Shown: piece by piece, positions 4,072 to 44,570 of the stretch
How the letters are laid out: the number at the start of each line of letters is the position of its first letter
Position numbering within the stretch: the first letter of the stretch is position 1
Assembly: GCF_001999965.1 (NCBI RefSeq)
Contig: NZ_CP019646.1
Coordinates: forward strand, 1,674,001-1,738,000
Length of the DNA stretch: 64,000 nt
Reading direction: 5' to 3'
Origin: Limihaloglobus sulfuriphilus
Lineage (GTDB): Bacteria; Planctomycetota; Phycisphaerae; Sedimentisphaerales; Sedimentisphaeraceae
Notes under the pieces: model-generated
What the model saw: the letters and a program-made list of their open reading frames with translations, nothing else
Told to the model about the DNA's origin: nothing
Database searches by the model: none
Program-made: the position numbers and the translations under genes

Positions 4072-7000
4072 TCACTGTGTTATTCCAGGCATAGTATTCG
4101 ACACAAGCCAGTCTGCGGAAAACAGACTCATGTCAACAAGGTCAATTTGACAATCTCCATTTATATCCTCAGGATTATCTCCCGTACACTCAGGCAGAGA
4201 AACAATCTTAATGTCATCAATATCGATAACGCCAACGCCGTCTCCGTTGTCATCATCAGCAGGTGTCCATACGCCGAAAAGCAGCGCGCCGATATCATTG
4301 AGATCGCTGTAGGCATCACCAAAACGATACTGAAGGTCATGCAGATCAATAACCCACTGATCCCACCCAACAGGCTCTGCGCTGCTGCCGTTTGGACGTT
4401 TAATCAGCATCTGGCCCTTTATACGGTTAGACGCATCGGCAGCAAATTCTTGCGCGGTACCTGTTCCAGAGAGAAACTTTATATAAAGTGCCTTTTCAAG
4501 GCTGTTGCCCTCATGTCTGTTGATCATAGCTGTAACAAGATCGCTCGAGGTCAGATCGATCGGATTATCGAGTATATAGACAATCTCGGTGAAAGCAGAA
4601 AGGCCTGTATTAGAATCCATATCTCTGTAATTCCAGCGAAGTGCATTAGAACCGGTGTACGCATCGGCGGGGTTCGTGAGAAGTGTAACCGTCGATTCAG
4701 TCGCGAAATCCGCAAGTGCTAACGGGAATTCAAACCATTTGCCCTCAAGAGCCGTCTGGTCAGCATAGCTTTCAAAGTTCCCATCTTCGATAAGGGATTC
4801 CGTGCCGGCCACACTGAGACTGCTGTTAAGCCACATGCCTGCCATCTGACTGACATCAGCCGGACCACAAGCCGCATCGCCGTTAACATCACCAGCCAGA
4901 ACGGGGCCGTAACTGTAAAGGGCCTGTATCTCCGGAGCGGACATTGGCCTGTCATAAATCCTGACTTCATCGAGAGTACCGCTGAAACTGGCGTGAGCAA
5001 CGGCAACATCACCGGCATGTCCTCCTATAGTTAAACCATAAAAGACGTTTCCGGTTTCCACTTCCGCCCCAGGGGCCGAGTGTATCATCTCACCGTCAAG
5101 ATACAGGCTGAAGGTCCTGAAGTTATCTGATGTCTGGTTGATAGTCATTGCAACATGCGTCCATTGATCCGGTGCAATCGCATCAGCAGCAGAGAAAAAA
5201 CTTGTTGGATGCATGACATAATCATCAACGATAGTTCCATCAGGCAGCTCTTCCTGAATATGTTCACGCCAATAGTCATAGACCAGACCTACAGAACCGT
5301 TTGACTTGACTATAATATACACCTTGTACATCATTCCCCCGCCCGGACGGACACTGAAAAGGAATCTGTCACCGCTGGGGATGGCGTCGGGCCTTATCCA
5401 CATGGAAACAGTCTTGTTATTTGTTGAGTCCGAACCAAAAGAGTATGTGTCGTTGACATCATCGAGTATTAAACACGAAGCTCCGTCAAGCCAGATACCG
5501 CCGTTATAGGCGCCGGTCCACCATGACTGGTCACCGGACGGTGCATTCACGATGACGCCATTATTGATGTCGTTGCCGGCAGAGTCGCTGAGGATAATAC
5601 CGCTGGTCTCATCGCATTTCCAATATAAATCAAGGCTGCTGGTAATATCTATAACGGCTTCCTGGGGAATATAATCCTTGAGTGCAGCTACTTCAACCGG
5701 CTGCAGTGGCCTGCCGTAAATTCTGAAGTCATCTATCTTGCCGAGAAATCCCTGATAACTTTCAACAGGTATACTGGCATCTGCCGCGGTTGCGCCTATA
5801 GACGGACCGTTGATAGAACCGTCTGTATGCCTTGCATTACCGGCCGTGCTGCCTCCAAGATTTCCGTCGATGTACAAACTCATGCTGCACAGATCATCAG
5901 CAGTATTTTCGATAACAACCGCAATATGATGCCATGTCTGCCCGTCGGGTGTGGGTATATCAACCCTCACTTCGCCGGTTTCTGTAGCACAGCGAAGCTG
6001 ACTGGCCTTGTAATAGAGGTAAATCTTGAAAACATCAGCTCCTGAGTTTCTATTGCTCCAGATAAAATAGTTTCTGTCAACATTAAACACGTCCGTACTC
6101 GGACATACCCACATGGAAATTGTTTTATTCTGGAAATTACCCAGAACAGAAGCATTTGGAATCAGGAAGGCATTTGTTCCGTCTAATTCTGCGCAGAAAT
6201 CGAACAGGCCGTCAACACCATTGGCCCCCCACGGAGATGAACTGCCGCCGTCAAGATACCGCACCTGTGCATCCTGTGTCATCATGCTGTCATATGCGTA
6301 TTCACCTGAATCCTGATCAAAGGGATAATAAATATCCATATCCAGTTCAGGATTGAATTCTCCCGGGCCGCTTGACTCAGGAATATGTGCGTAAAGTCCT
6401 GCAATATCTGTATCTATCAGAGCCGCGGAATAAATCCTGAATTCATCTATTTTGCCTACAAAAGCCTGATGATTAGTAGGGGGATTCAAAGGAGCCGCAT
6501 CAACGGCGTTAGCCCCGATAGAAGGACCGTTAACAGAGCCGTCTGTATGCTGCACTCCGCCTGTAGTGGTTTCTACAAGGCTTCCGTCAAGATAATAATC
6601 GAAGTCTGTAGTCCCTGAAACTGCACCATCTTTCATAACCACTGCAACATGATGCCAGGTGCTGCCATCCGGAGGATCGATGGGAACAATCCTTGTCTGC
6701 GAACCGCCGCCGTCAAGGGCCGCTACAAACTGAATAGAGTTATTACGGTAGAGGACATATATCTTGAACTCATCGGCACCGGAGTTTCTGTTACTCCAGA
6801 GAAAATAGTTCTGATCCGACCCGGCTGTCGAAGCGTCAGGGCAAAACCACATTGAGAGGGTTTTGTTCTGGAAATTACCCAGTATATGCGCATTAGAGAG
6901 TAAAACACCGGTCATACCGTCAAGATTGATCCCGCCGCTAAATTTACCTGCCCCCCAGAAGGTGCCCAGAGCCTGCCCGTCAAGGGAAGTTACCGTTCCA

Positions 7001-7149
7001 GAGCAGGGGCCGACCGTGTCTGTGACAGATGTGCCCTGTGTCTGGTCAAAAGGATAATACACCTCCAGATTCTGCCCCGCGTCAAATGGGAATGCCGCAT
7101 TGGTTAGCAGTAAAAGACTCAAAGACAAACAAAAAATTAATCGTTTCAT
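4072..7149 (-). CDS. Large secreted protein: three LamG domains, CBM-like domain, dockerin-like repeats
   Basis: I place the start at the ATG at 7149, because AAAGGAAA lies just upstream and a signal peptide (M-K-R-L-I-F-C-L...) begins there; an in-frame ATG at 7164 overlaps the previous stop. Three tandem LamG jelly-rolls span about residues 25-255, 270-495 and 505-745. A D-V-N-G-D calcium-loop motif follows (about 750), then a ~190-residue galactose-binding-like beta domain, and a terminal D-I-N-G-D-C-Q-I-D motif ending A-D-W-L. It is last in operon A, after four lyase-like propellers, and probably binds or displays polysaccharide at the cell surface. No catalytic domain was recognised. Confidence 0.85.
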   Translation of the reverse strand: MKRLIFCLSLSLLLLTNAAFPFDAGQNLEVYYPFDQTQGTSVTDTVGPCSGTVTSLDGQALGTFWGAGKFSGGINLDGMTGVLLSNAHILGNFQNKTLSMWFCPDASTAGSDQNYFLWSNRNSGADEFKIYVLYRNNSIQFVAALDGGGSQTRIVPIDPPDGSTWHHVAVVMKDGAVSGTTDFDYYLDGSLVETTTGGVQHTDGSVNGPSIGANAVDAAPLNPPTNHQAFVGKIDEFRIYSAALIDTDIAGLYAHIPESSGPGEFNPELDMDIYYPFDQDSGEYAYDSMMTQDAQVRYLDGGSSSPWGANGVDGLFDFCAELDGTNAFLIPNASVLGNFQNKTISMWVCPSTDVFNVDRNYFIWSNRNSGADVFKIYLYYKASQLRCATETGEVRVDIPTPDGQTWHHIAVVIENTADDLCSMSLYIDGNLGGSTAGNARHTDGSINGPSIGATAADASIPVESYQGFLGKIDDFRIYGRPLQPVEVAALKDYIPQEAVIDITSSLDLYWKCDETSGIILSDSAGNDINNGVIVNAPSGDQSWWTGAYNGGIWLDGASCLILDDVNDTYSFGSDSTNNKTVSMWIRPDAIPSGDRFLFSVRPGGGMMYKVYIIVKSNGSVGLVYDYWREHIQEELPDGTIVDDYVMHPTSFFSAADAIAPDQWTHVAMTINQTSDNFRTFSLYLDGEMIHSAPGAEVETGNVFYGLTIGGHAGDVAVAHASFSGTLDEVRIYDRPMSAPEIQALYSYGPVLAGDVNGDAACGPADVSQMAGMWLNSSLSVAGTESLIEDGNFESYADQTALEGKWFEFPLALADFATESTVTLLTNPADAYTGSNALRWNYRDMDSNTGLSAFTEIVYILDNPIDLTSSDLVTAMINRHEGNSLEKALYIKFLSGTGTAQEFAADASNRIKGQMLIKRPNGSSAEPVGWDQWVIDLHDLQYRFGDAYSDLNDIGALLFGVWTPADDDNGDGVGVIDIDDIKIVSLPECTGDNPEDINGDCQIDLVDMSLFSADWLVSNTMPGITQ

Positions 7150-7160
7150 AAGATTTCCTT

Positions 7161-8432
7161 TCATTGAACATCTACCAAATATTGTTCTAACGGCATATAC
7201 ACTGCCGCAGTTTTATTATCTATTAAACTCGTAAACGATATGCCTCCACCGGAAAAACCCACACTGGATATCTCTGGCGAAGTGCTGAGTACGGCGCTGC
7301 CTGTACTTCTAAGCAGTTTCAACCTGCTCATATCCGAACTCTCAACATATAACATAGTCTCATTCTTATTATTATAGGTAATTTCAGTTATAACTGAAGC
7401 CGTTCCCGAAGCAGGAAGGCGGGAAGCAATTTTCCTCGGTTTGAGCAAGCGCCTCACCGCCGCAGGTGAGACTGTCCAGAACTGGGTATCTCTGCTCATA
7501 ACCCCTGTACGGGCTATTTTCGCTCCGGTCGTGTAATACAGCAGACGGCTTAAGCCGTCCCACTGAATCCGGGGAATAAAACTAAAATCAACCTCATCAG
7601 CCACTTCATAAAGCATGGAGCCGTAATCATCTGAAAAAAGGATTGAACGTACATATTGCAGATTTAAGTCTGAGTCAAATACACCACGGGCCAGAGCGGT
7701 TTTTTGGCCGGTTCTGTCAACCGAGGCTGCAATATCCAAAACTATACTACCATCGCTGTCTTTGAAAGCCGGACGTGCAAGAAGTATCTCTTTGCTTTGC
7801 ATCAAACCGTCCCGGTCAAGTTTGATCCGGTATACAACTGATGTCATACCGCCAAGCGCGTCCGTTTCTTCCGGACCGTAATGGACAACATTAACGATGA
7901 TAGACTCTGTTTCGCGATGATAAACGGGAGATCCGTAAATCGTTCCCTGGTCAAAGATCATATAATCACGTTTTACCGCAGTTTCGAGAAGTATCCCCTT
8001 GAGTAGATGTCCCCCCACGGTTTTATAAACGACAACCTTGTTCACGGTATCTACAGTATAGTTAGCATCCAGGGTGAAGTCATAGTGTCCCTTCAGGTAA
8101 TTCGCCGTTTCTTCGGAGGTTATCGGTTCTAACCAGAATGCTTTATTGTTGGATAAATTTACTGCGTAAAGTTGTCTTTCGCCTTCAACCGGACGGCCTG
8201 AAGCCCTGTATCCGTCTGTTTCTATTATAAAAAAGTCATCTTCGCCCAAAGTAACAACCGTGTTTCCGCCCGGCGAAGCGAAGCAGTTGTCGCTGCCAAT
8301 GCCAAATGCTACCGCGTTGTACTCCTGCCCAATTACAGTACAGGGTACTTCTATGAAGTTAGTCGAAATCTGACATAAGCAGGGTGTAAGAAACAGCGTA
8401 TTGATATATAATATTGTTTTGATCATCTTCAT
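7161..8432 (-). CDS. Degenerate PL22-like beta-propeller paralogue, probably non-catalytic
   Basis: This 423-residue secreted protein aligns by eye with its three upstream neighbours: G-E-R-Q-L-Y-A-V-N-L matches their E-R-Q-L-L-A-V-N-I, and D-Q-G-T-I-Y-G-S-P matches their E-G-T-I-G-D-P-P. It lacks both histidine motifs of the others (T-H-E-I-W-G-P and H-P-R-H-x-H-P). In PL22 oligogalacturonate lyases those positions coordinate the metal, so this copy is unlikely to be a lyase. It may bind ligand or be drifting. Only one base separates it from the preceding gene, and its stop overlaps an alternative start of the next. Confidence 0.7.
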   Translation of the reverse strand: MKMIKTILYINTLFLTPCLCQISTNFIEVPCTVIGQEYNAVAFGIGSDNCFASPGGNTVVTLGEDDFFIIETDGYRASGRPVEGERQLYAVNLSNNKAFWLEPITSEETANYLKGHYDFTLDANYTVDTVNKVVVYKTVGGHLLKGILLETAVKRDYMIFDQGTIYGSPVYHRETESIIVNVVHYGPEETDALGGMTSVVYRIKLDRDGLMQSKEILLARPAFKDSDGSIVLDIAASVDRTGQKTALARGVFDSDLNLQYVRSILFSDDYGSMLYEVADEVDFSFIPRIQWDGLSRLLYYTTGAKIARTGVMSRDTQFWTVSPAAVRRLLKPRKIASRLPASGTASVITEITYNNKNETMLYVESSDMSRLKLLRSTGSAVLSTSPEISSVGFSGGGISFTSLIDNKTAAVYMPLEQYLVDVQ

Positions 8433-8433
8433 T

Positions 8434-9726
8434 TTATTCGAGCTCTATCAAAGCTATTTTTGAACCACTTTCGTCTGATTCGGTATAAACGACCTTGTCA
8501 CCGGCCATGTTCAGCTGCGGATGAACATGCCGCGGATGGTTAAGTCCCTCAACAACATTTGCAAGTTTAACTGTATTGCCGGTAATCCGGTCATAAAGAT
8601 ACACACTTTCGGTGTGATTTGCGTATTCGTCAAGCGGTTTGATTGTGTGTGAAGTCTGTGTTTCGTACACAAAAAACCGTTCACTTCCACAGGTGCTTAC
8701 GTGCAGACATCTTGGATTGATTCCCTGGGTAAGGATTTCTTTCTTCTCGGTACGGGGGTCAAATTTCCATATAGCCCCAGTGCCTTCAATAGCCACAAGA
8801 TACATATATTTACCCTGCGGCCCCCATATCTCGTGAGTATGTATCATTCCGACAGGCGTTGGAAGTGCCACTTTTATCAGTGGGCTCTCCACCCTGCCGT
8901 ACCATACACGAGTTTTTTCGATACTGCCGTCTGAATAACCCCCATAACCTCTTGAGAATGAAAACTCATCCGGATTAGCCGGATTTACGATAATGTGTGC
9001 AAGACCCATAGTTGTGTCGGTCAGCCTTCTATCAATAGTGGCATAGACAAGATAAGGACCCTTTATGACTGTTGTATCATCAAGGTCAATTGCATAGACG
9101 CCTTTGGAGGTGCCTCGGAGCATATTGTCGCTTGCCGGCCCGGGATGCGTCACATAAACCATGATCCTGCTGCCGTCTTCAGAGATGCTCGGCGGATCAC
9201 CTATAGTGCCTTCGTTACAATGCCAGAGGAGCTTTTTATCCCCGGTATCGAAATCCATCAGGTATAGATTGTGGCCTGTCATATCGTAATATACAAGGTT
9301 GTTGGTGACCGGCGAATAGTCAGTGTGGTACTGTGAGGATGTGTAGAAATGAGAGTTTCCATATTGAGCAACGTCCTCAACGAGGAGAGAGTCAATATGG
9401 TAAATACCGCCTGTTGAGATATTTACCGCCAGCAACTGACGTTCTTTTGTGTATGAGGGGAAATCTCCCCCATTGTCTGTTCCGTCAGGCCGCGGCCGGG
9501 AGGATTCTACAATAACATACTGGTCATCCTCCGCGAAGGTCCGGCTGTGCGGGTAGGCATGGGTATTCATGTGGTCGGCACTGGTCAGATAATAAACACG
9601 CGTACCGGTCTCCGTGTCAACTGACGAAGTCTTTTCGTTTCCGATAAGCTGAAATTCAGAAGATATACCGGCAATCGAACAGCTGTATAAGACAAGTATA
9701 AAGAATATGATATAGTTCAGCTTCAA
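8434..9726 (-). CDS. Secreted oligogalacturonate-lyase-like (PL22-type) beta-propeller
   Basis: The 430-residue protein starts with TTG, preceded by AGAAGG seven bases upstream, and has a signal peptide that could be a lipoprotein signal (L-Y-S-C). The body resembles PL22 seven-bladed propellers: T-H-E-I-W-G-P-Q-G (about 298) and N-H-P-R-H-V-H-P (about 400) correspond to the family's metal-binding His residues. The site corresponding to the proposed catalytic His in PL22 reads S-R-G instead of C-H-E/G. Known PL22 enzymes are cytoplasmic, so an exported form is unusual. The substrate may not be oligogalacturonate. Confidence 0.75.
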   Translation of the reverse strand: MKLNYIIFFILVLYSCSIAGISSEFQLIGNEKTSSVDTETGTRVYYLTSADHMNTHAYPHSRTFAEDDQYVIVESSRPRPDGTDNGGDFPSYTKERQLLAVNISTGGIYHIDSLLVEDVAQYGNSHFYTSSQYHTDYSPVTNNLVYYDMTGHNLYLMDFDTGDKKLLWHCNEGTIGDPPSISEDGSRIMVYVTHPGPASDNMLRGTSKGVYAIDLDDTTVIKGPYLVYATIDRRLTDTTMGLAHIIVNPANPDEFSFSRGYGGYSDGSIEKTRVWYGRVESPLIKVALPTPVGMIHTHEIWGPQGKYMYLVAIEGTGAIWKFDPRTEKKEILTQGINPRCLHVSTCGSERFFVYETQTSHTIKPLDEYANHTESVYLYDRITGNTVKLANVVEGLNHPRHVHPQLNMAGDKVVYTESDESGSKIALIELE

Positions 9727-9741
9727 TTAAAACCTTCTCTG

Positions 9742-11046
9742 TTAATCAATGTTATCTATTTCCATATAAGCCACCCTGCTGTTATAGCCGTGGCCGGTTG
9801 TAAATACAACCTTTGTACCCTCAAGATTTATCCTCGGATGACAATGCCTCGGGTGGTGAAGTCCTTCGCGAAATCTTGCCAGCCGGGTATGTTTGCCTGT
9901 CTTGACATTGTAAACCGCAAGCCACTCATCGTGGTTACCGTATTTGTCAAGGGGATTACCCTTGGAATCGTAAGTCTGGGTTTCATATACAACAAGGTTC
10001 TCATCCCCGCTGAGTGATATATGCAGACAGCGGGGTGTGATGTCCCCAAAGACCTGTTCGACCTCGCCCGTTCTCGGCTCTACCCTGCGAACGCATCCTT
10101 TTTCAACAATATCAACATAATAAATATATTTGCCCTGAGGCCCCCATATCTCATGAGTAAAGATATGTCCATCAGGTGTTATATTTGCCAGTTTTACAAG
10201 CGAACCGTCAATCTTTGAATACCATATTCTGCTTTTAAGCACACTTCCGTCACTTCGATCCCTGAAACCATGGCAGTAAGAGACCTCATCGGGGTTCACC
10301 GGATTGATAACCGTATGGCAGGGAGCAATGCGCATTTCCTTATAAACCTGCTGTACAAAGGTATTTATGATATAAGGAGATTTTGTGAGTTCAATGCCGT
10401 TAAGATCAAAAGCATACATAACCGTAGTTCTGCCGAAAAACTGCTTGTTTTCAGCCGGGCCGGGATAGTCAATATATGCCACAGCTCTGGTGCCGTCTCT
10501 GCTGATTGTAGGCGGATCGCCTATTGTTCCATCCGGAACATGCATTATTCTTTTTCGTTTGCCGTTAGTCAGATCAAGCATGTAGAGATTGTGACCTGAC
10601 ATATCGTAATAGATCACAGTGTTGGAACCGGGGGCATAATCAGCGTGATACTGAGATGACATTGAGAGATGGCCGGCGTATTTTGATGTATCTTCCATCT
10701 CCAGTGTTGCAAGATGATATATCCTGCCATCATCAATATTTACGGCTAAGAGCTGGCGTTCCTGCCTGAAATAGGGGTCTTCCTCACCGCACGCGGCTTT
10801 CCAGGTTCCCTCAGGCCGCGGGCGGGAAGATTCTATCATTACATATTTATCATCCTCAAGCCAGCTGCGGTTGTGAGGGTAACTGTGGCAATTCATATAA
10901 TCACCGTTTGTGAGGAATCTGATTTCTCTGCCTGTTACCTTATCGGTTACGGTCTCTGTTTCACTTTCTGCGACACGGGGGAAAACATCACATATTTCGC
11001 CATAAACAGTGCCCATCGCGGCAAGAAGAAAAATAAGTTTTATCAT
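9742..11046 (-). CDS. Secreted oligogalacturonate-lyase-like (PL22-type) beta-propeller
   Basis: I chose the ATG at 11046 (M-I-K-L-I-F-L-L-A-A...), which begins a signal peptide and has AAAGGA upstream; an ATG at 11070 would overlap the previous gene. This is the most canonical of the four paralogues: S-Y-C-H-G keeps a His at the position of the proposed PL22 base, T-H-E-I-W-G-P-Q-G (about 298) and H-H-P-R-H-C-H-P (about 402) keep the metal-binding histidines, and the closing blade ends G-T-K-V-V-F-T. The Gln that helps bind the metal in characterised enzymes is His here. Probably a secreted beta-eliminating lyase on uronate oligomers; activity is inferred. Confidence 0.78.
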   Translation of the reverse strand: MIKLIFLLAAMGTVYGEICDVFPRVAESETETVTDKVTGREIRFLTNGDYMNCHSYPHNRSWLEDDKYVMIESSRPRPEGTWKAACGEEDPYFRQERQLLAVNIDDGRIYHLATLEMEDTSKYAGHLSMSSQYHADYAPGSNTVIYYDMSGHNLYMLDLTNGKRKRIMHVPDGTIGDPPTISRDGTRAVAYIDYPGPAENKQFFGRTTVMYAFDLNGIELTKSPYIINTFVQQVYKEMRIAPCHTVINPVNPDEVSYCHGFRDRSDGSVLKSRIWYSKIDGSLVKLANITPDGHIFTHEIWGPQGKYIYYVDIVEKGCVRRVEPRTGEVEQVFGDITPRCLHISLSGDENLVVYETQTYDSKGNPLDKYGNHDEWLAVYNVKTGKHTRLARFREGLHHPRHCHPRINLEGTKVVFTTGHGYNSRVAYMEIDNID

Positions 11047-11059
11047 AATATTTGTCCTT

Positions 11060-12382
11060 TTATTTATCAAGTTTTACGAAAGCAACCCTGCTGTTATATC
11101 CATCCGCTTCGGTAAATGCCACCTTCGTGCCCGCATAATTTATCTGTGGGTGTATATGTCTTGGATGATTAAGCCCTTCGTTGACTGTAGCAAGCAATGT
11201 GAACTTTTTTTTCTTAACGTCATACAGTACAAGGTCTTCGAGATGATTTTTATACTTGTCTATCGGTTTTATACCGTGAGAAACCTGGGTGTCAAATACG
11301 ATATAACGCTCGTCCATGCTCACGGAAACGTGGAGGCATCTGGGATTGGTGTCTTTAAAGATTACGGTTGTCTCTCCCGATCCGGGTTCCACTTTTGACA
11401 CGCCGCCGGTCCCGCAAATATCAACATAGTATATATACTTTCCATTAGGAGACCAGAGATCATGAGTATAAATATGCCCTTTTTCGGTTATGTTGGCAGG
11501 CTTTAAGAGTGAACCGTCCACTTTTACGTACCATACCCTGCTCATCTCTGCACTGCCATCAGCTATACCAAACCCTCGCGAGTAGGACATCTCGCTCCTG
11601 TCGGCGGGGTTTATAACCGCATGAGAGAGATTGAGCATACTGCGGCGGCTGCCGGTCTGTTTTTCAGGAGCAAGCCAGCGATCCGCAAGAACGGTGACAA
11701 CTTCTGGCCTTCCCTTCATGGTAAGCTCAACAGGATCGACATCAATATAAAATGCGTAGGAGGTTCTTCCTGTAAAATCATAATCCGAAGGTCCGGGCAT
11801 ATCCATGTACACAACGACACGATCACCGCTGTTGCATATCGTTGGCGGGTCGCCTATTGTCCCCTTATCAACGTGCCAGAGCAGTTTTTTTCTGCCCGTG
11901 TCAAGACTTAACAGATAAAGGTTATGCCCCGTCATATCATAATAAACGACAAGATTATGCTCAGGGGCGTAATCCGCATGGTATTGACTCGACATTGTGA
12001 AATGATATTTTCCGTACTTTTCGGATGCGTCAGATTCATGCTCAAGTGTGGCTAAATGGTAAAGATCGCCGGTGGAAACATCCGCTGCCAGAAGCTGCCT
12101 CTCGCCGGTAAAAAATTCCGGTTTACATTCATTACGGCTGCTTCCCGGCGCGGGACGGGATGATTCGATGAGAACATATCTGTCGTTCTCTGCCCAGGTC
12201 TTGTTATGAGGATAGAAGTGGCAGTTCATAAACTCACCGCTGGTGAGATAAGTTATTGTTCTGCCGGTAGTTTCGTCCTTAACTACCTCTTTTTCACAAC
12301 CAATCCTAGGGAAAACATCGGCTATTTCAGCATATACTGAGCAGAAAGAACAAAAAAACAGACAAAGCACTATTATTTTCAT
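11060..12382 (-). CDS. Secreted oligogalacturonate-lyase-like (PL22-type) beta-propeller
   Basis: The 440-residue paralogue has a signal peptide (M-K-I-I-V-L-C-L-F-F-C...) and the same propeller pattern. It reads T-H-D-L-W-S-P-N-G (about 306; Asp replaces Glu) and N-H-P-R-H-I-H-P (about 408), so the metal-binding histidines persist. The presumed base position is S-R-G. It is first of the tandem array of four and follows the pseudopilin by 49 bases. The three well-conserved copies may split different chain lengths or linkages. Confidence 0.76.
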   Translation of the reverse strand: MKIIVLCLFFCSFCSVYAEIADVFPRIGCEKEVVKDETTGRTITYLTSGEFMNCHFYPHNKTWAENDRYVLIESSRPAPGSSRNECKPEFFTGERQLLAADVSTGDLYHLATLEHESDASEKYGKYHFTMSSQYHADYAPEHNLVVYYDMTGHNLYLLSLDTGRKKLLWHVDKGTIGDPPTICNSGDRVVVYMDMPGPSDYDFTGRTSYAFYIDVDPVELTMKGRPEVVTVLADRWLAPEKQTGSRRSMLNLSHAVINPADRSEMSYSRGFGIADGSAEMSRVWYVKVDGSLLKPANITEKGHIYTHDLWSPNGKYIYYVDICGTGGVSKVEPGSGETTVIFKDTNPRCLHVSVSMDERYIVFDTQVSHGIKPIDKYKNHLEDLVLYDVKKKKFTLLATVNEGLNHPRHIHPQINYAGTKVAFTEADGYNSRVAFVKLDK

Positions 12383-12431: not shown

Positions 12432-13334
12432 CTAAGGATATTTCTTTTGAGGCTGCCACCGCCAGTTGTTTGGATATTCAAGCCCTTTAAACGGCTGCCC
12501 ACTCAAGTAATCAGCTCCTTTTACCAGGCCGTGCCAGCTCACATGACCATCTACAAAAGCATAATTACCGCCATCTTTGTGCAAAGAATGCTGATTCTCA
12601 GTAAATGCCGGTTTACCGTTGTATGTTGCTGTATGAACTCTAGGTTTTTCGAATATCGCTCCATGATTGCTGCCCTGAACATTACCATAACCGGATGAGT
12701 CGCCGTAATCAGCCGTGTTGCCAAGGTGATTCTCGCCGACCAGTATTACCGAACCAGGCTGGGCAACCTGGGATTCCTTGGCAGGACGGCAGCTTCCGTC
12801 ACCTGAAAGCTCGGGGTTTGTCTTACGCCGGTAGCCTTGCACATACCACCATATACCATTATATAATGTTATATTAGGGCCGTATGACCGCGGCAGAGGC
12901 GTACCGTCAACATTCTGAAAAGAAGCTGCATAGGCATCGGATATGTCCTTGCTTCGCGGCTTTTTGTCTGAAGGACAATGCAGATATTTCTTCATTGCAT
13001 CCGTTTTACTCGTTGACCACTGCTGTGCCAGAGCCGCATCCCAGGGCTGCTGGGCGAGCTCCTGGTTTTTGTAATACGCCCAGGGGCTGCCCCTGTAAAA
13101 ACTCCGATCCGGAACCAGCATCCCGTCATTATCTGCAGCGTTTAAAAGAAGCGCTATAGCAACCTGCTTTGAATTGGATGCACAAAGAACTTTCTTGGCC
13201 TGCTCTCTGGCCTTGTTCAAAGAGGGCAAAAGGATAGCCATAAGAACCGCTATGACCGATATAACAACCAATAGCTCTATCAAGGTAAAACCTTTTCCAG
13301 GCACATCAAATTTATTCCCTGTTTTTTTAATCAT
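12432..13334 (-). CDS. Type II pseudopilin-like protein with H-X9-DG signature
   Basis: The 300-residue protein has a prepilin cleavage site [12 protein letters not shown] followed by a hydrophobic helix, then a variable soluble domain. Near the C-terminus [12 protein letters not shown] fits the H-X9-DG motif of the prepilin-associated family that is greatly expanded in Planctomycetota. It lies inside the operon between an oxidoreductase and the propeller lyases, so it may belong to the surface or secretion apparatus for that substrate. The function of this expanded family is not established. Confidence 0.88.
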
Positions 13335-13357: not shown

Positions 13358-14440
13358 CTAAACTAAAGATAAATCATAATCTTCAACATTTTCACATACT
13401 TTATCTGTTCGAATATCATTAAGATTATAAGACCTGTTTACCGTTTCAAAAACCTTTATTGAACCCAGCAGTCTTTCTACATAATCGGGTGAAGGCACTT
13501 CACGATTTTTTATCATATCATAATAATTCCCCCACAGATATGCCCCGCTGAGTTTTTCAGAGCAGATAGTTTTCCTTTCGGTAACAATTTTGTCCGATAC
13601 AGTTTTAGCCTGGACTGTCATCTCAATTTCTTTGCGAGGCCAGATTGCTTGCGGTCCAACATTTCTGTAAATAACTCCATTTTCAAAACCTAAGACCATG
13701 CTGTCTGGATACGGACTGTCATCGCCTATGCAAAACGACGCCAACACATTCGCTATCAGCCCATTCGAAAACTTCAATGACATATTGGCGTTGTCTGGCG
13801 TGGGTCTCTCTGTAAATATTCTGGACTCCACAACACTTACGCTTTCTATGGCTCCAAAAAGCTGAATCAGGTCGTTGAGAGCGTAAATCCCTATGCGAAA
13901 CACCGGAGCAACAGGGCACAATTCTCGCTGATCATACCAGCTGCCGTCATGTTTTTCGCGATAATTAGCCCATGTAAAACACTGGGCCGAAATCGCACGC
14001 CCAAGATCATACTTTTCTATCCACGCATAAATCTGCTTTATATCATCAGGCATTATGGGGTAAGGTGAATTGGTACATAAGACCTTATTTAAATTTACAA
14101 GTTCTCTCAAAGCTTTTTTTGCAGAACTGGAAGATTCTTCGAATGGCTTGGTGGTGATTATGTCTTTGCCGGCTCTGACGATAGCTTTTATCTGGTCTGC
14201 TCTGCCGGCCGGACCTGTGAAAAGCCCGACACATTCAAAATCCCCTTCACGAAGCATTTCGTCAAGATCGGTAAATCCTCTTACACCATATCTGACGGCA
14301 ACCTCACTGACATCGTCCTTTTCAAGACTGCAAACCGCTGTTAATTCAAAAAAATCCGATGCTTTCCCGGAAAGAATCTGGGTTTCTATAATATGCTTGC
14401 CGTAATGCAGACCAACAATAGCTATTTTTATTCTTTTCAT
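13358..14440 (-). CDS. Gfo/Idh/MocA-family oxidoreductase, first gene of operon A
   Basis: The 360-residue protein begins [11 protein letters not shown] (Rossmann), has '[13 protein letters not shown]' where the family has the catalytic-type Lys-Pro, and an alpha/beta domain with '[16 protein letters not shown]'. It is distinct from the copy at 2119-3138 (low similarity outside the motifs). Leading the operon that encodes the PL22-like propellers, it may act on a released uronate or sugar. An inverted repeat overlaps its promoter. Confidence 0.87.
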
Positions 14441-14697: not shown

Positions 14698-15795
14698 CTA
14701 CCTGTCCACTCTTGCGGTTCCGCCTGCCATTACCTTTTCAACTTCTTCCAGGCTCGCAGTGGTTGTATCGCCGGGTGTTGTCATGGCCAGCGCCCCGTGG
14801 GCGGCACCATAATTTACGGCTTCATCGCCGGATCTGCCTTCCATCAGGCCGTAAATAAGCCCCGAAGCAAAGCTGTCTCCGCCGCCGACACGATCGTATA
14901 TCTCGAGATTTTCACGAAGCAGGGCCTCATGAAAATTTCCATCAACATAAAGTATTGCTCCCCAGTCGTTTATACCGGCAGTTTTGGCGTTTCTCAGGGT
15001 CGTTGCTACGGCCTGGAAGTTTGGAAACTGTTTTACAGCTTCGAGGATCATCTTCTTGAAGTTGCCCGGGTCTATCTTTGATATGTGCTTATCGAGGCCT
15101 GCCACATCGAGCCCCAGACATGCGGTGAAATCCTCTTCGTTGCCCATCATGACATCAATATAGGTTGCTATCGACCTGTTGACCTGCTGAGCTTTTACTT
15201 TGCCGCCGATGGACTTCCAGAGGCTCGGGCGGTAATTCAGGTCATACGAGACGATCGTGCCGTATTTTTTGGCCGTCTTTACCGCTTCGACGACGGCATC
15301 AGGGGTTGTCTCTGAGAGAGCCGCGAATATGCCGCCGGTATGAAACCATCGGACACCATCTTTACCGAAAATTGAATCCCAGTCGATATCGCCTTTCTTG
15401 AGCTGTGAAGCCGCAGAATGGCCGCGGTCACTGCAGCCCTTTGCCGCACGAACACCAAAGCCCTTCTCGGTGAAGTTAAGGCCGACGCGTACATCACGGC
15501 CTATTCCGTCAAACGGAAGCCATTTGACGTATTCAAGCGAAACCCCGCCCTGGTACATCAAATCCTCTAACAAGCGGCCCACAGGATTATCGGCAACAGC
15601 GGTTACAACCGCCGCACGTTTGCCAAAACACCGCTTGAGTCCCCTGGCAACATTATATTCGCCACCCCCTTCCCATACTTTGAAGTGCCTGGCAGTGTGT
15701 ATCCGATCATCACCGGGATCGAGACGTATCATAACCTCGCCGAGTGAAAGTATATCGTATCTGCATTCCTTTTCAGATTTGAGTTTTAAAGCCAT
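14698..15795 (-). CDS. kdgK: 2-dehydro-3-deoxygluconate (KDG) kinase, PfkB family
   Basis: The 365-residue sugar kinase has an N-terminal 'SLGEVMIRLDPG', the substrate-side G-G-G-E-Y-N-V-A motif and the C-terminal PfkB signature 'DRVGGGDSFASGLIYG', whose Asp is the catalytic base. It would phosphorylate KDG to KDPG in the cytoplasm. A one-base gap to the upstream KDPG aldolase makes the kinase/aldolase pairing strong evidence for this substrate over other PfkB sugars. It is the last gene of operon B. It is slightly longer than typical KDG kinases (~310-340 residues). Confidence 0.88.
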   Translation of the reverse strand: MALKLKSEKECRYDILSLGEVMIRLDPGDDRIHTARHFKVWEGGGEYNVARGLKRCFGKRAAVVTAVADNPVGRLLEDLMYQGGVSLEYVKWLPFDGIGRDVRVGLNFTEKGFGVRAAKGCSDRGHSAASQLKKGDIDWDSIFGKDGVRWFHTGGIFAALSETTPDAVVEAVKTAKKYGTIVSYDLNYRPSLWKSIGGKVKAQQVNRSIATYIDVMMGNEEDFTACLGLDVAGLDKHISKIDPGNFKKMILEAVKQFPNFQAVATTLRNAKTAGINDWGAILYVDGNFHEALLRENLEIYDRVGGGDSFASGLIYGLMEGRSGDEAVNYGAAHGALAMTTPGDTTTASLEEVEKVMAGGTARVDR

Positions 15796-15796
15796 A

Positions 15797-16471
15797 TTAT
15801 TCGCCTCTTACCTTGTTTATAAGTTCAATTGTTTCCCTGACATTTGCTGTAATTGCCGCCCAGTCACGGTTTTTTACAAGCTCTTCTGTAATGAGCTTCG
15901 ATCCCATCCCTGCACATACAATTCCCGCGTCAAACCATTCTTTGAGACTTTCTTCGGTCGGTGAGACACCCCCTGTGGGCATAATCTCAGTCCACGGGCA
16001 CGGGCCGGTAACGGCCTTAACGAATGCAGGGCCGCCCACCTGGGCCCCGGGAAAAACCTTGCATATCTCGACACCCAGTTCGTGGGCCTTGTGTATCTCG
16101 GTCACAGAACCGCAGCCGGGAGAATAGGGTATTTTGCGTTTGTTGCACAATTTAGCGGTTTCCTCATCAAGCAGCGGCCCAACAACAAAATCAGCGCCGG
16201 CAGAAATATACATAGCGGCGGTCGGTGCATCGCAGATACTGCCGACACCAAGTATCAGATCGGGCCTTTGCTGATCACGAAAGACGCATAACTGCCGGAA
16301 AACATCGACAGCTCTGTCGCCGCGGTTTGTAAATTCTACCGCTTTTGCGCCGCCGTCAGCACAGGCCAGAGCAATATTCTTGACTGTTTCAAAATCACTG
16401 TTGTAAAATACCGGGATCAGACCAGTTTTTTTCATTGTTGAAAGCACGTCCAATCTTTTGTGAAATGCCAT
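15797..16471 (-). CDS. eda: KDPG/KHG aldolase (2-dehydro-3-deoxy-6-phosphogluconate aldolase)
   Basis: The 224-residue class I aldolase keeps the Glu of the 'AVEFTNRG' strand, the Schiff-base Lys in 'EICKVFPG', and the phosphate-binding 'MPTGGVSP' loop. It splits KDPG to pyruvate and glyceraldehyde-3-phosphate, and may also accept 4-hydroxy-2-oxoglutarate. Directly upstream of the KDG kinase, it completes the lower branch of uronate or Entner-Doudoroff-type catabolism. Confidence 0.9.
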   Translation of the reverse strand: MAFHKRLDVLSTMKKTGLIPVFYNSDFETVKNIALACADGGAKAVEFTNRGDRAVDVFRQLCVFRDQQRPDLILGVGSICDAPTAAMYISAGADFVVGPLLDEETAKLCNKRKIPYSPGCGSVTEIHKAHELGVEICKVFPGAQVGGPAFVKAVTGPCPWTEIMPTGGVSPTEESLKEWFDAGIVCAGMGSKLITEELVKNRDWAAITANVRETIELINKVRGE

Positions 16472-16517
16472 AATGACATCCTTTCAGTAATTTATAATCG
16501 CAAATTCGGTTTAAGTT

Positions 16518-18536
16518 TCAGCTGTATATTCTGCCGTTTCGATAATCGGCCCAGGCCGGTTCAAACGCTTTTCGCTCTGAGGGGGCCATTCTAACCGGCA
16601 CTGTTTCTGATGTAAAGAAATTCTCATTGGCAGGATCAAATACAATACGCATAACAGAATCCCGCAGCTTGAGATTTTCGGGCTTGAATCGGAGTGTTTC
16701 ACCGGTATCAGGATCCTTAATATCAGGATGAACCTCGATTCCGTCACCAGCAAGAACCAGATGTGAGCCTCTCGAACCGGAACCTGCCTCTAACAGGTCC
16801 ATGACAGCCTTGAGCGAAGCTACGCAGGCAAGCGAAATGTGTCTTGCCTGAACCGCAGTTATCAGGCTTGACTCGTTGTTGACGGCAAGACCGCATAATT
16901 GAATGCTTTGGAACAGCTCAAGGGCTTCTTTGAAGGCTTTTCTGACATTTGCAAGCTTGCGTATATGCCCGCCGAAAGCTGTCATCCTCTGCTGTATCTG
17001 CTTTATTGCCTCAACCGGAGCCGGACCGCTGCCCCGCAGTATATCAAGCGATTTGATCGCCGCGGCAATTTCTTTATCCACATCATCCGGGACAGTTATA
17101 TCAGAGCCGTACGCGTTTACGATAAATTCTGCCGCACGCTGGGCGCCAACCTGACCGGCGTTCAGGGCGGAACCGCCGGGACGCTTCACGCCGTGAGACC
17201 CCGCCATCTCGCCTATGACGAACGTGTGCCTGATATTAGACTCCCACCATTTGTTGATCGCGAAGCCCCCATTGTTATGTTGTGCGCAGACAGCAATTTC
17301 AAGCGGCTCAGAATAGAGGTCAATATCATGCTCTTTGTAAATATCAATCGCCGGAGAATTCATATGCTCAAGCCGTTCAATGGGCAGGCTCTGCAACGCT
17401 GAGGCGGCCTTTAAATAATCAAGGGCCTCCGGCCCAAGATCCTCAAACCTGAATTCATCCATCCCCAGATTTCCGACAGGGTTACGCAGAAAATCCATAA
17501 AAACACGCCTGCCCTTTTGCGTCTCGTTAAATACGACAACATCTATAAGCGAAGACTGATAATTCTCAATCCGCTGAGGATCGAACGGCCACTGGTATCC
17601 TTTGAGAAAGATATCCGTTGCCATCCTGCTCATCGAAGGAAAGAAACCCGTGAGAAATTCACGCTCGTCATTGCCCTCGGCGTCGGTGCTGAATATCCTG
17701 GGTATTGCCTGCATGTAGGTACCGGAGACATTCCAGCGGAATTTTATGCTGGCCAGGCCAAACTGTGACTCTGTGAAGTTCTCCGCGGCAAGGCCCGCTT
17801 TGAAAGCTATGCCGTGCATTCCAGTCTGGCCCTTAGGATAGACACTTGTCTTATACAACGCACCTGGGCCGCCGGCAGCAAGCACGAAATTGTCGGCGAG
17901 GAACACGCTTAATCCCAGATTATCACCATGCAGCTGCTTTTTGTTTATCGTAATCAGCCCTAAGATTCTTTTATTATCGCCCTCGCCGCGGGTTATGAAT
18001 TCAACTGCTTCCTGGTGGTCGTAGATTGTTATTCCATAACGCGTTATAATCTTTTCAAGGCACTCGCTCATGAATTTGCTTGTCTTGGGACCTGCCGAAG
18101 TGGCGCGTTCGTACGGGTCGTGATCGGTCTTGTAGCCGACATAGATACCCATAGAGTCACTGGGGAAAGGTACTCCGGCTTCTACAAGGTTATAAAACCC
18201 CCGAAGCGAGCCGATCCCCTCTGCCAGAGCCAGATCTGCGTGGCAACATCCGCCGGCGGTAAGGCTTTTCGCAAAACTCTCAGCGCTGTCGGCGACATCC
18301 GGGCTGGTGCCCATCTTATAGTATGTCTGCTTATCAGATCCGCTCATGCGGGATGCGCCAAGGGCTTTGCCGGCAGTAACCACCGCTATTCTTTCCTGAG
18401 GATTATCTACACCATTCTGATCCATATATTCATACAGTTTCTTTGCGCAGTTCATGCCGGCTGCACCGGCGCCGACGACTACTGTATTGAACCTGTGTAT
18501 TTTGACATCCTGACCGTTTATTTTTCTTGTAGTCAT
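16518..18536 (-). CDS. Fumarate-reductase/SdhA-like FAD-dependent oxidoreductase
   Basis: About 672 residues. An N-terminal FAD fold (V-V-V-G-A-G-A-A-G) is followed by a long capping domain, then 'HNNGGFAINKWWESN' and 'GEMAGSHGVKRPGGSALNAGQVGA', which match the FAD-binding return of fumarate reductase, APS reductase and aspartate oxidase flavoproteins, and then a helical C-terminal domain. No iron-sulphur or membrane subunit lies nearby, so the electron partner is open. I chose the ATG at 18536; a GTG at 18545 is also possible. Its N-terminus (M-T-T-R-K) is shared with the OYE fusion in the same operon. Substrate unknown; a redox step on a sugar acid or enoate is the best guess. Confidence 0.78.
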   Translation of the reverse strand: MTTRKINGQDVKIHRFNTVVVGAGAAGMNCAKKLYEYMDQNGVDNPQERIAVVTAGKALGASRMSGSDKQTYYKMGTSPDVADSAESFAKSLTAGGCCHADLALAEGIGSLRGFYNLVEAGVPFPSDSMGIYVGYKTDHDPYERATSAGPKTSKFMSECLEKIITRYGITIYDHQEAVEFITRGEGDNKRILGLITINKKQLHGDNLGLSVFLADNFVLAAGGPGALYKTSVYPKGQTGMHGIAFKAGLAAENFTESQFGLASIKFRWNVSGTYMQAIPRIFSTDAEGNDEREFLTGFFPSMSRMATDIFLKGYQWPFDPQRIENYQSSLIDVVVFNETQKGRRVFMDFLRNPVGNLGMDEFRFEDLGPEALDYLKAASALQSLPIERLEHMNSPAIDIYKEHDIDLYSEPLEIAVCAQHNNGGFAINKWWESNIRHTFVIGEMAGSHGVKRPGGSALNAGQVGAQRAAEFIVNAYGSDITVPDDVDKEIAAAIKSLDILRGSGPAPVEAIKQIQQRMTAFGGHIRKLANVRKAFKEALELFQSIQLCGLAVNNESSLITAVQARHISLACVASLKAVMDLLEAGSGSRGSHLVLAGDGIEVHPDIKDPDTGETLRFKPENLKLRDSVMRIVFDPANENFFTSETVPVRMAPSERKAFEPAWADYRNGRIYS

Positions 18537-18576
18537 ATTACTCACTCAAATTCTCTGGTTTATCAAATTTATATTA

Positions 18577-19371
18577 TTAAAGCCGCCTGAGATGAAATCC
18601 GCCGTCAACATTTATCACCTGACCTGTGGAAAAATCGAGCCTGCCCTCGGCTATGGCACCAACCGCCTTTGCGATATCTTCAGGATATCCCCACCTTTTT
18701 ATGGGGGTTATTCCCTCTGCAATCAGCTTGTCGTATTTTTCTTTAACAATGCTTGTCATGTCAGTCATGATTATGCCGGGGCGAATCTCAAAGACACCAA
18801 TATTGTATTCGGCGAGCCTGTCGGCATAGAGCTTAGTCATCATGCTTAAACCCGCCTTGCTCAGGCAGTATTCACCTCTCGCCGGGCTTGATGTGTATGC
18901 CGAAACACTGCTGGTTGTGCATATCCGGAAGTTGCGGTCAGGGTTTGACTGCTTCTGCTCAATCATCCAGTTAGCGGCAAGCTGAGTAAGAAAGTAAGGC
19001 CCTTTAAGGTTTATATTCATTACCCTCTCATAACTTTCCTCTCCGGCTTCGAGTATATCCTGCCGCCGGGCAGGGGCGACTCCTGCGTTGTTAACGAGCA
19101 TGTCGCAGCGGCCGAAATGTTCTTTTGTAAAATCAATAAGCCGCTGCCTGTCTTCTGATCTGCTTATGTCGCCGCGAAGTGCATAAGCCTGTACCGTGAG
19201 TTTCTGCACTTCTTCAACAGCCGCCGCCGCTGCAGTGTCATCGGGCTGGGAATCTTTGAAATCAAAGTAGTTTATGATGATATTATACCCGAGTGAAGCA
19301 AGCTCAATCGCTATTGCCCTGCCGATGCCCCGGCTTGCCCCGGTAACTATTGCTGTAGGTTTATCTGACAT
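18577..19371 (-). CDS. Short-chain dehydrogenase/reductase (FabG/KduD-like)
   Basis: About 264 residues with the SDR cofactor motif T-G-A-S-R-G-I-G, the N-N-A-G strand, a catalytic Ser in 'TTSSVSAYTS', the Y-C-L-S-K catalytic Tyr-Lys and the C-terminal 'STGQVINVDGGFH'. The ATG at 19371 (M-S-D-K-P) has GAGGAAT just upstream and is preferred to 19383. Annotation by similarity would be '3-ketoacyl-ACP reductase', but beside KDG kinase and KDPG aldolase a sugar-acid dehydrogenase (a KduD-like step giving KDG) is more plausible. This is an inference from context. Confidence 0.85.
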   Translation of the reverse strand: MSDKPTAIVTGASRGIGRAIAIELASLGYNIIINYFDFKDSQPDDTAAAAAVEEVQKLTVQAYALRGDISRSEDRQRLIDFTKEHFGRCDMLVNNAGVAPARRQDILEAGEESYERVMNINLKGPYFLTQLAANWMIEQKQSNPDRNFRICTTSSVSAYTSSPARGEYCLSKAGLSMMTKLYADRLAEYNIGVFEIRPGIIMTDMTSIVKEKYDKLIAEGITPIKRWGYPEDIAKAVGAIAEGRLDFSTGQVINVDGGFHLRRL

Positions 19372-19372
19372 T

Positions 19373-20392
19373 TTATTCCTCATCTAATAATATTTTTCGT
19401 GTTTTTATTATGTTGTCCGGCGAAACGTTACATGAGAGCACGCCCGTTCCGGCAATTATGTTATTATTTTCAGACGCGGCAGTCTTGACCGCCCTGATCT
19501 CCTCATCGGCCGCATCTATACCCGCTTCAATCGAGATGGGAGATATGTTGCGGCGGATAAGAGTATTGTATCTTTGAGACTTTTTGATGAATACTCTCAT
19601 ATCCGAGCTGAAATCACTCAGGATTATATCAGCTCCCGTTTCGAAAAGTTCTCCCGATATGGCTGTTGTATCCCCGCCGGTGACATACTCTATAAGATCT
19701 GCTCCGGAGGCCTTGTAATCCCGGAATAATTTTTTAACATGCGGAAGAATCATCTTTCTGAACATATCCGGTGACAGCAGCGGCGGCACTGCCTGTGAAT
19801 CGAACAGGCATACTCCGCAGCCCGCCTCTATATACAGCCTACCGAACTCAAAAGCAAGCCCGCTGCAGTGGTCGAGAAGATCCGCCAGAGATTCAGGATC
19901 GGTAAAAGAGGCCATTATCAGCGGCTCGATTCCCATCAGAGAAGCGGCTATGGAATACGGCCCGCTCAAACCGCCCCGGACATGCACCTCTGAGCCGAAC
20001 ATTTTGCTGACCCTGCGGGCGGCCTCAACGAACATTCTTATTCGACCCTTTTCAAGTGCCTCATTAACCTTGGGCAGCTTTGAGAAATCAGGTTTTTCCA
20101 GAATTCTCTGCCTGAGATTAGGAACTTCATCCATCGAATCACTGAACACAACTTCAGCACCGAGAGACTGGGCCTCGACATTGTATATGTCAACCCCGAC
20201 AGTCAAAACATCCGGCCTGTAGGTTTCATATTCTGCGGCAAGAGCCTCTGCCAGCCTATCAACATCCTGTGCGATAATTGAAGGGCTCGAGTTTATGAGC
20301 CTGGCTTTGTGCTCATAAACTGCAGGGCAGAACAAAAGCCTTTCGACTTTTTCACCGGCCAGTTTCCTGTTTAACAGTTCTCTTGAATTCAT
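19373..20392 (-). CDS. Uroporphyrinogen-decarboxylase-fold (UroD/MtaA-like) protein
   Basis: About 340 residues starting at the ATG at 20392 (M-N-S-R-E-L-L), since the longer start overlaps the upstream gene. The pattern 'RELLNRKLAGEKVERLLFCP', the barrel segments 'VHVRGGLSGPYSIAASLMG' and 'DSQAVPPLLSPDMFRKMILP', and the C-terminal 'NIIAGTGVLSCNVSPDNI' fit the UroD-like superfamily. In this family many members are not haem enzymes but methyltransferases that work with corrinoid proteins. No corrinoid protein or haem gene lies nearby. Its role in a sugar-acid operon is unexplained. Confidence 0.75.
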   Translation of the reverse strand: MNSRELLNRKLAGEKVERLLFCPAVYEHKARLINSSPSIIAQDVDRLAEALAAEYETYRPDVLTVGVDIYNVEAQSLGAEVVFSDSMDEVPNLRQRILEKPDFSKLPKVNEALEKGRIRMFVEAARRVSKMFGSEVHVRGGLSGPYSIAASLMGIEPLIMASFTDPESLADLLDHCSGLAFEFGRLYIEAGCGVCLFDSQAVPPLLSPDMFRKMILPHVKKLFRDYKASGADLIEYVTGGDTTAISGELFETGADIILSDFSSDMRVFIKKSQRYNTLIRRNISPISIEAGIDAADEEIRAVKTAASENNNIIAGTGVLSCNVSPDNIIKTRKILLDEE

Positions 20393-20393
20393 C

Positions 20394-23042: not shown

Positions 23043-23058
23043 ATTTGTTTCCGTAGTA

Positions 23059-23517
23059 TTAGGCATTGAATAAAAGCATTTTCGCAAATGCCAGACTGTA
23101 TATCACAAAACCGGCACAGAGTATGTATCCGCCGATTATATAGGATCGTGTTTTTTTTTGGCGTTTTATGATTATCCCGGTCAGAACATCTTCCGGGCTC
23201 TCATCTAGCCTTGAGGTTGTCCAACTGATGCCGAGTACATTTTTCCAGACCCATACGGCACTGGTAAGCACTACAGCCAAACCTGTTATAACACAAATCT
23301 GAGCAAAAAGGCTTGTATCTGCTATACGCCTTCCGGAAAAACCTGTAATCGTAAGCACCACACCTGCCAGACTCATCAAAACCTGGGCTCTGGTCTGCAA
23401 GACATTGAGCTGCCTCTCCAGAACTCCTACCGATTTGTACAGGTCTCCGCCGCACAATTCAAGGAGGTTTTTTGCCTCACGGGCCGCACTCTTTAAAACT
23501 TCAGTATCATTTTTCAT
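23059..23517 (-). CDS. Small membrane protein with N-terminal helix, unknown function
   Basis: The 152-residue protein has a polar helical N-terminus (about 1-40, coiled-coil-like, 'VGVLERQLNVLQTRAQ') and three hydrophobic segments (about 44-60, 68-90 and 125-148). I do not recognise a family. It is the first gene of operon B, directly upstream of the OYE/GltD fusion. It could be a membrane anchor or sensor for the redox enzymes, but that is only a guess. Confidence 0.7.
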   Translation of the reverse strand: MKNDTEVLKSAAREAKNLLELCGGDLYKSVGVLERQLNVLQTRAQVLMSLAGVVLTITGFSGRRIADTSLFAQICVITGLAVVLTSAVWVWKNVLGISWTTSRLDESPEDVLTGIIIKRQKKTRSYIIGGYILCAGFVIYSLAFAKMLLFNA

Positions 23518-43451: not shown

Positions 43452-44570
43452 AGCGGATTCAACTCATAAGTGCAATTAAGTCGCCAAAATTGTGGTGAGC
43501 TGGTATACTCTCTCACTGAATTATGGTGACCTCAACGAAAGGAACACTTATGAGAGCGTACAAGCAGCTCACCGAAGACGATCGTATCGAAATATATGCC
43601 ATGAAGCAAGCAGGAAATCAACAAAAACAAATAGCTGCGGCGTTGGGCGTTTCTCCCAGCACGATCAGCAGGGAACTGGCCCGCAATACAGGTCTGCGGG
43701 GCTATCGCCCTAAGCAGGCCCAGCAAAAGGCTTTATATCGACGGATGGCCGCCCGTAAAGCAGTCAAAATGAAGCCGGAGACGATAGAATACATTGAATC
43801 CCGCCTCCGGCAGCAACATTCGCCGGAGCAGATCGCAAAACGCATGAAAACCGATCCCCACTGGCAGGGGCCGGCCGTCAGTCATGAGCGGATTTACCAG
43901 CACATTTGGCAGGATAAAGCCCGGGGAGAAACCCTGTATACCCATCTGCGGATTGCCGGGACCAAACAAAGAAGAAAACGAAGAAACAGCCGGGACCGGC
44001 GTGGAACGATCAAAAACAGGGTTGGTATCGAAAAACGCCCACCGGTTGTAGAGAGAAAAAACCGCATCGGGGACTGGGAAGGCGACACCGTCGTGGGGAA
44101 AAACCATCAGGGAGCCCTGGTAACCCTGGTTGACCGCAAAAGCAAGCTGACGCTGATCGGTAAGGTAGATCGTTATACCGCCGAAGCGGTTGAACGGACC
44201 ATTATCGCCCTGATCGGCACGCTGCCCCGACGAACCTATACACTGACAGTGGACAATGGCAAAGAATTTTCAAACCATGAATCTATTGCCCATAACCTTA
44301 AAATTAAGGTCTTCTTTGCCGATCCCTACAGTGCATGGCAGCGGGGCTTGAATGAGAATACCAATGGCTTGATCCGTCAGTATGTACCAAAAGGAAGTGA
44401 CATCCGAATGCTGACCAATCAGAAGATTGAGCACATAATGAATCGACTGAATAATCGACCCAGAAAATCTCTTGGATTTTTAACCCCAAATGAAGTATTC
44501 TATAAGAGGAAAAAACTAACAGGATAACAAAACAGGATTTAACTTAATTGCACTTGGGAGTTGAATCCGC
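43452..44570 (+). mobile_element. IS30-family insertion sequence, copy 1 (1119 bp)
   Basis: The ends AGCGGATTCAACTCATAAG and the complement of GGGAGTTGAATCCGC are inverted repeats, and GAAT is duplicated at 43448-43451 and 44571-44574. The same 1119-bp length and end sequences occur in copy 2 at 55508-56626, and the two encoded transposases are identical. Confidence 0.92.
43550..44527 (+). CDS. IS30-family transposase, copy 1
   Basis: The 325-residue transposase starts at M-R-A-Y-K-Q with AAAGGAA upstream. It has the IS30 N-terminal helix-turn-helix ('QKQIAAALGVSPSTISREL') and a DDE core with D in 'IGDWEGDTVVG', D in 'TLTVDNGKEFSNHE' and E in 'GLNENTNGLIRQY'. It looks intact and active. Confidence 0.96.
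   Translation: MRAYKQLTEDDRIEIYAMKQAGNQQKQIAAALGVSPSTISRELARNTGLRGYRPKQAQQKALYRRMAARKAVKMKPETIEYIESRLRQQHSPEQIAKRMKTDPHWQGPAVSHERIYQHIWQDKARGETLYTHLRIAGTKQRRKRRNSRDRRGTIKNRVGIEKRPPVVERKNRIGDWEGDTVVGKNHQGALVTLVDRKSKLTLIGKVDRYTAEAVERTIIALIGTLPRRTYTLTVDNGKEFSNHESIAHNLKIKVFFADPYSAWQRGLNENTNGLIRQYVPKGSDIRMLTNQKIEHIMNRLNNRPRKSLGFLTPNEVFYKRKKLTG

Follow-up and report, generated by a model that had tools for sequence, protein, structure and literature searches.

The locus analyzed here raises the question of why a bacterium, the planctomycete Limihaloglobus sulfuriphilus, should encode in a single run of genes four related propeller proteins that resemble a cytoplasmic lyase but carry export-type N-termini, and of what has become of the one member that lacks the active site. 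The PL22 oligogalacturonate lyase (OGL) is a cytoplasmic enzyme of the final stage of pectin degradation (PMC12838403), whereas the members of the array form a tandem set with signal-type N-terminal sequences. The answer that we favor, with a probability of about two in three, is that three of the proteins (A, B and C) are secreted and cleave uronides as metal-dependent lyases, the fourth (D) being a non-catalytic propeller.

The gene array and the PL22-like propellers A-C

The four genes lie on the minus strand of the window, the stretch of 64,000 nucleotides that was analyzed from the host genome (3.87 Mb, a single contig): A at 11060..12382 (440 aa), B at 9742..11046 (434 aa), C at 8434..9726 (430 aa) and D at 7161..8432 (423 aa, with an intact frame). 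For B, the ATG at 11046, with AAAGGA upstream, is preferred over a TTG at 11070; C starts with a TTG preceded by AGAAGG. The genes are tightly packed, with 49 bp upstream of A, 13 bp between A and B, 15 bp between B and C, and a single base pair between C and D, and the stop codon of D shares a 4-bp overlap with the ATG of the following gene (4072..7164, minus strand), whose product, predicted to be exported, carries three LamG (Laminin_G_3) domains and, at its C-terminus, a stretch that, by eye only, looks dockerin-like. With this spacing and overlap, D is translationally coupled to its neighbors. Directly upstream of A, on the same strand, are genes for a type II pseudopilin-like protein (N_methyl; 12432..13334) and, beyond it, a GFO/IDH/MocA oxidoreductase (13358..14440); many LamG and pseudopilin proteins are encoded in this genome. 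The products of the array are related in sequence (identity to A is 52% for B, 48% for C and 20% for D), and each begins with a hydrophobic stretch, from which export was predicted by Kyte-Doolittle hydropathy (best 10-residue mean 3.1 in A, 2.5 in B, 2.9 in C and 1.8 in D). The original prediction of an array of four related propellers with signal-type N-termini is thus borne out.

The AlphaFold2 model of A (pLDDT 74, pTM 0.80) has its best fold match in the PL22 structure 3pe7, the Mn-bound oligogalacturonate lyase of Yersinia, the Vibrio counterpart of which is 3c5m. In Foldseek, 3pe7 was matched with an E-value of 1e-19, compared to 2.5e-10 for the next unrelated fold, and VIA-align superposed the model on 3pe7 with a Z-score of 33.3 and an rmsd of 2.8 over 342 residues, 9 units of Z above the next propeller family (24.4). 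The PL22 fold was accordingly assigned to A on the basis of its model; a failure to superpose, named beforehand as the outcome that would speak against the prediction, did not occur. B and C are ~48-52% identical to A, and sequence searches connect the same proteins to the same structures: phmmer aligned B with 3pe7 (E 1.4e-10), and a profile of A-C matched 3c5m (E 1.9e-10) with the same residue alignment, although overall identity to the PL22 enzymes is only 16-17%. Only B (51.2 bits) exceeds the 30-bit cut-off of the Pfam family PF14583; the score of A below this cut-off (22.1 bits), the lack of any Pfam match for C, and a histidine in place of Q350 all count against reading these proteins as PL22 lyases.

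The case for the assignment rests equally on individual residues. For the PL22 enzyme, Abbott et al. 2010 reportedly proposed H242 as the base, with R217 in contact with the substrate and Mn2+ bound by H287, Q350, H353 and H355. Alignment to 3pe7, by which the histidines of A-C were located, shows B to be identical at R217, H242, H287, H353 and H355; the equivalents of R217 and H242 are aligned in both B and the A-C profile and are invariant across A-C, and the metal-ligand positions H287, H353 and H355 are kept as histidine in this sequence alignment, with Q350 replaced by histidine in all three proteins. In A, the residues R282, H307, H351, H406, H409 and H411 are all present. Two motifs, T-H-(E/D) and H-P-R-H-x-H-P, had been noted as retained in A-C and missing from D, as is indeed the case, and had been interpreted as the metal site. 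This interpretation holds for H-P-R-H-x-H-P, which covers the ligands H353 and H355 and the first histidine of which stands in place of Q350, but not for T-H-(E/D), which corresponds to H242, the proposed base rather than a ligand; a third invariant motif, R-C-L-H, which aligns with the ligand H287, had been overlooked. Equivalents of H192, R217 and H242 are found in nearly every one of ~45 rows of the superfamily alignment and, apart from a doubtful arginine, not in D. Taken together, the modeled fold and the active-site residues support the classification of A-C as PL22-like, and the retention of R217, H242, H287, H353 and H355 argues for the same beta-elimination chemistry.

The divergent fourth paralogue

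D is 23-26% identical to A-C in its N-terminal half, and identity falls to 13-17%, close to noise, in its C-terminal half; hhalign detects similarity to A-C over residues 48-217 only (E 3.4e-11). When compared to the 46 other rows of the superfamily set, the N-terminal half of D matches A-C alone and the C-terminal half matches none. D contains four histidines, none of them in the C-terminal half, compared to 18-19 in each of A-C, and has no histidine at any catalytic or metal position. The proposed loss of the metal site is therefore correct but understated, given that the entire C-terminal half is unrecognizable. The model of D shows a strand-rich blade pattern but is weak (mean pLDDT 51, with residues 236-377 below 50); its best matches are 3c5m and 3pe7 (Z 20.1 and 19.6, against 16.3), a result biased by the inclusion of A-C in the alignment used, and BT3686 (GH145) was seen only as a match to this weak model (Z 14.9). 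These observations suggest that D is probably a non-catalytic propeller.

The reading frame of D is intact at ~80% protein divergence, although ~4.3% of single substitutions would create a stop codon, and no frameshifted remnant of the missing half was detected in the other frames. A frameshift origin of D was considered and set aside: the other frames have no homology to the lost half, and the single weak match is to the 3' end of C itself. The intact frame, the lack of such a remnant, and the coupling to the neighboring genes together favor a maintained gene over a pseudogene, so that D is probably a maintained paralogue; its codon bias (0.009, the weakest of the genes compared, the others ranging from 0.029 to 0.100) calls for caution. 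This weak bias, the loss of all catalytic positions, the very long branch (2.9 to 3.3) and the lack of a D orthologue among 392 genomes of the phylum, where a search with D retrieved only the paralogues from its own genome, could all be accommodated by a functionless pseudogene in the making. We nevertheless consider decay quite improbable because neutral drift over such a distance should leave many stops and indels, whereas D retains 423 codons without a stop at ~20% identity, a signal-like N-terminus, the blade pattern of the model, and tight links to both neighbors. Alternatively, recombination could have joined an N-terminal half from a gene of the A-C type to a C-terminal half from another propeller gene, which would account for the abrupt end of similarity near residue 217 and for a second half that matches nothing in the superfamily set. 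Such a chimera also appears unlikely: D is as long as A-C, the aligner spans it end to end despite the low identity of its second half, and relaxed selection on one half would give the same picture. Under the reading of D as a maintained paralogue, its catalytic half would have been rebuilt without catalytic or metal residues while the gene was kept, and the protein might bind substrate or associate with A-C or with the LamG protein to which it is coupled. The role of a binding-only subunit, as originally suggested, is compatible with the data and possible; the more specific proposal, that D is maintained as a secreted pseudoenzyme of the PL22 superfamily and serves the active lyases A-C and the LamG protein as a subunit for binding or assembly, is tentative, and we would sooner bet against it than for it.

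Distribution, phylogeny and exported relatives

In two overlapping draws, one of ~400 genomes from the phylum and one of ~400 from the class, the A-C profile detected no full-length relative, and the array was seen in the host genome only. When A was compared to the genomes of 40 close relatives, matches came from its own genome alone, and scans of genome contigs and viral contigs with four-row and three-row alignments retrieved no relatives. The family at large is more common: PF14583 matches were detected in 36 of 392 phylum genomes, the host included, and a broader profile (A5) had matches, the weak ones among which may be other propellers, in 43 of the 118 genomes that the analysis tool assigns to the order, 18 of them besides the host genome at E <= 1e-10. 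Several weak A2 matches (L008, L011 and L083) were left out of account, given their resemblance to other propellers or to peptidases. In a tree of 36 rows, A-C form a clade of their own (100/100), the stem of which is long (1.44 changes per column) and leads away from canonical PL22, with exported rows as the nearest neighbors at weak support; a smaller tree unites A-D (99/94), and the position of D in the larger tree is uncertain owing to its long branch. Given this well-supported clade, to call A-C a new subfamily, as originally proposed, is fair.

By hydropathy and visual inspection, many PL22-superfamily proteins of the order have Sec-type (L085, L087, L089, L084, L090, L091-L096 and L098) or twin-arginine (L099, L101, L102, L104-106 and L110) N-termini. 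Like A-C, the exported groups (L085/L087/L089, L084/L090, L091-L095, and the Tat group L101-L110) combine signal-type N-termini with the H192/R217/H242/H287/H355 framework; unlike A-C, they form separate clades, have other residues at positions 350 and 353, and are mostly encoded by single genes. The canonical rows have QxxHxH at the metal-site positions; HxxHxH is shared by A-C with L024, L027 and L028, three rows placed among the canonical ones in the tree; L091-L095 have AxxHxH, the Tat group has WRCDxH, and L082, L096, L031 and L032 have ExN. In the twin-arginine clade of L101, L102, L104-L106 and L110, W-R-C-D-T-H-P takes the place of the canonical Q-x-x-H-x-H-P. One of the exported relatives (L087/L114) adjoins genes for a PL11 rhamnogalacturonan lyase and GH2/GH42 proteins. 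The exception to single genes is an adjacent exported PL22-like pair (L118:7217-8401 and 8410-9579), of which the first has partial changes in the site (GHVNP); this pair (L118:7217-9579), from another genome of the order, has genes for a sodium symporter and a URO-D-like protein in its vicinity.

Judging from these sequences, exported PL22-superfamily proteins with varied metal sites are widespread in the order. The original prediction of an exported, amplified set thus stands insofar as A-D are of export type and the array is confined to its host in this survey, but export alone is not new and the L118 pair is also an amplification. The array is a distinctive local variant of a diverse, often exported family in this order.

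Genomic context and proposed function

Upstream of the array, at 14698..23087 on the minus strand, is a cassette encoding an OYE/GltD-like fusion, a URO-D-like protein, an SDR, a flavoprotein, a KDPG aldolase and a KDG-kinase-like PfkB protein. Its OYE-SDR-flavoprotein core is conserved across the order (the flavoprotein is present in 50 of 118 genomes), and many genomes without the array also carry the cassette; among the numerous members of the order that have it, genes for the KDPG aldolase, the KDG-kinase-like protein and a divergent AraC regulator are often part of it. A promoter-like site (14511-14484) with an inverted repeat lies between the KDG-kinase-like gene and the oxidoreductase, suggesting that transcription of the array may be independent of the cassette, in a unit of which the GFO/IDH/MocA oxidoreductase is possibly the first gene. 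The presence of the cassette in genomes without the array and the promoter-like site make any pathway link between the two circumstantial.

Elsewhere in the window, two identical 334-aa translations (43523-44527 and 55579-56583) resemble IS30-type transposases, and many other transposase-like ORFs are scattered over 26-64 kb. A GH32-like (levanase/invertase-like) gene at 49599-51807 appears to be split into two overlapping frames, possibly by a frameshift, and a sodium:solute symporter ORF (61621-62967), near transposase-like ORFs, matches its family profile only from position 123, so that its N-terminal part may be missing.

We propose that A-C are metal-dependent beta-eliminating lyases, each of which would act outside the cytoplasm, releasing an unsaturated uronate from uronide oligosaccharides. 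In this scheme (numbering of A), R282 and the histidine-bound metal would neutralize the carboxylate and H307 would take the C5 proton; the released 4-deoxy-hexuronate could then be taken up, reduced to 2-keto-3-deoxygluconate, and phosphorylated and split by the kinase and the aldolase encoded just upstream. The lack of a pectinase gene in the neighborhood of the array and of any KduI or PL10 match in the genome counts against this proposal; DhuI is an alternative isomerase (PMC12838403). In its favor are the kinase and aldolase genes just upstream, the exported relative next to the PL11 gene, and one gene of the GH28 polygalacturonase family in the genome, which has no GH88/105 match.

A serious contender, if short of an even chance, is that A-C combine the PL22 fold and metal site with a different reaction or with a non-pectic uronide substrate, such as rhamnogalacturonan, ulvan, or some other polysaccharide of algae or halophiles. 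The long stem of A-C and the metal-site variants AxxHxH, WRCDxH and QxxExN in the superfamily point in this direction, as do propeller lyases and hydrolases with other substrates, including PL24, PL25, GH145 and the FoRham1 family (PMC8377490). The PL24/PL25 ulvan lyases and GH145-like propellers resemble A-C in being seven-bladed and acting on uronides (PMC8377490), but have other catalytic residues and are not the best fold match. The replacement of Q350 by histidine could likewise indicate different chemistry; however, the same replacement occurs in the three rows that group with canonical PL22, and the remaining five active-site residues of A-C are retained.

The survey indicates that planctomycetes often export the PL22 fold and vary its metal site. 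The array described here displays such variation within one run of genes, down to complete loss, and offers a compact set for asking which of the residues are required for the chemistry and whether a lyase that has lost its activity can be kept as a binding protein.
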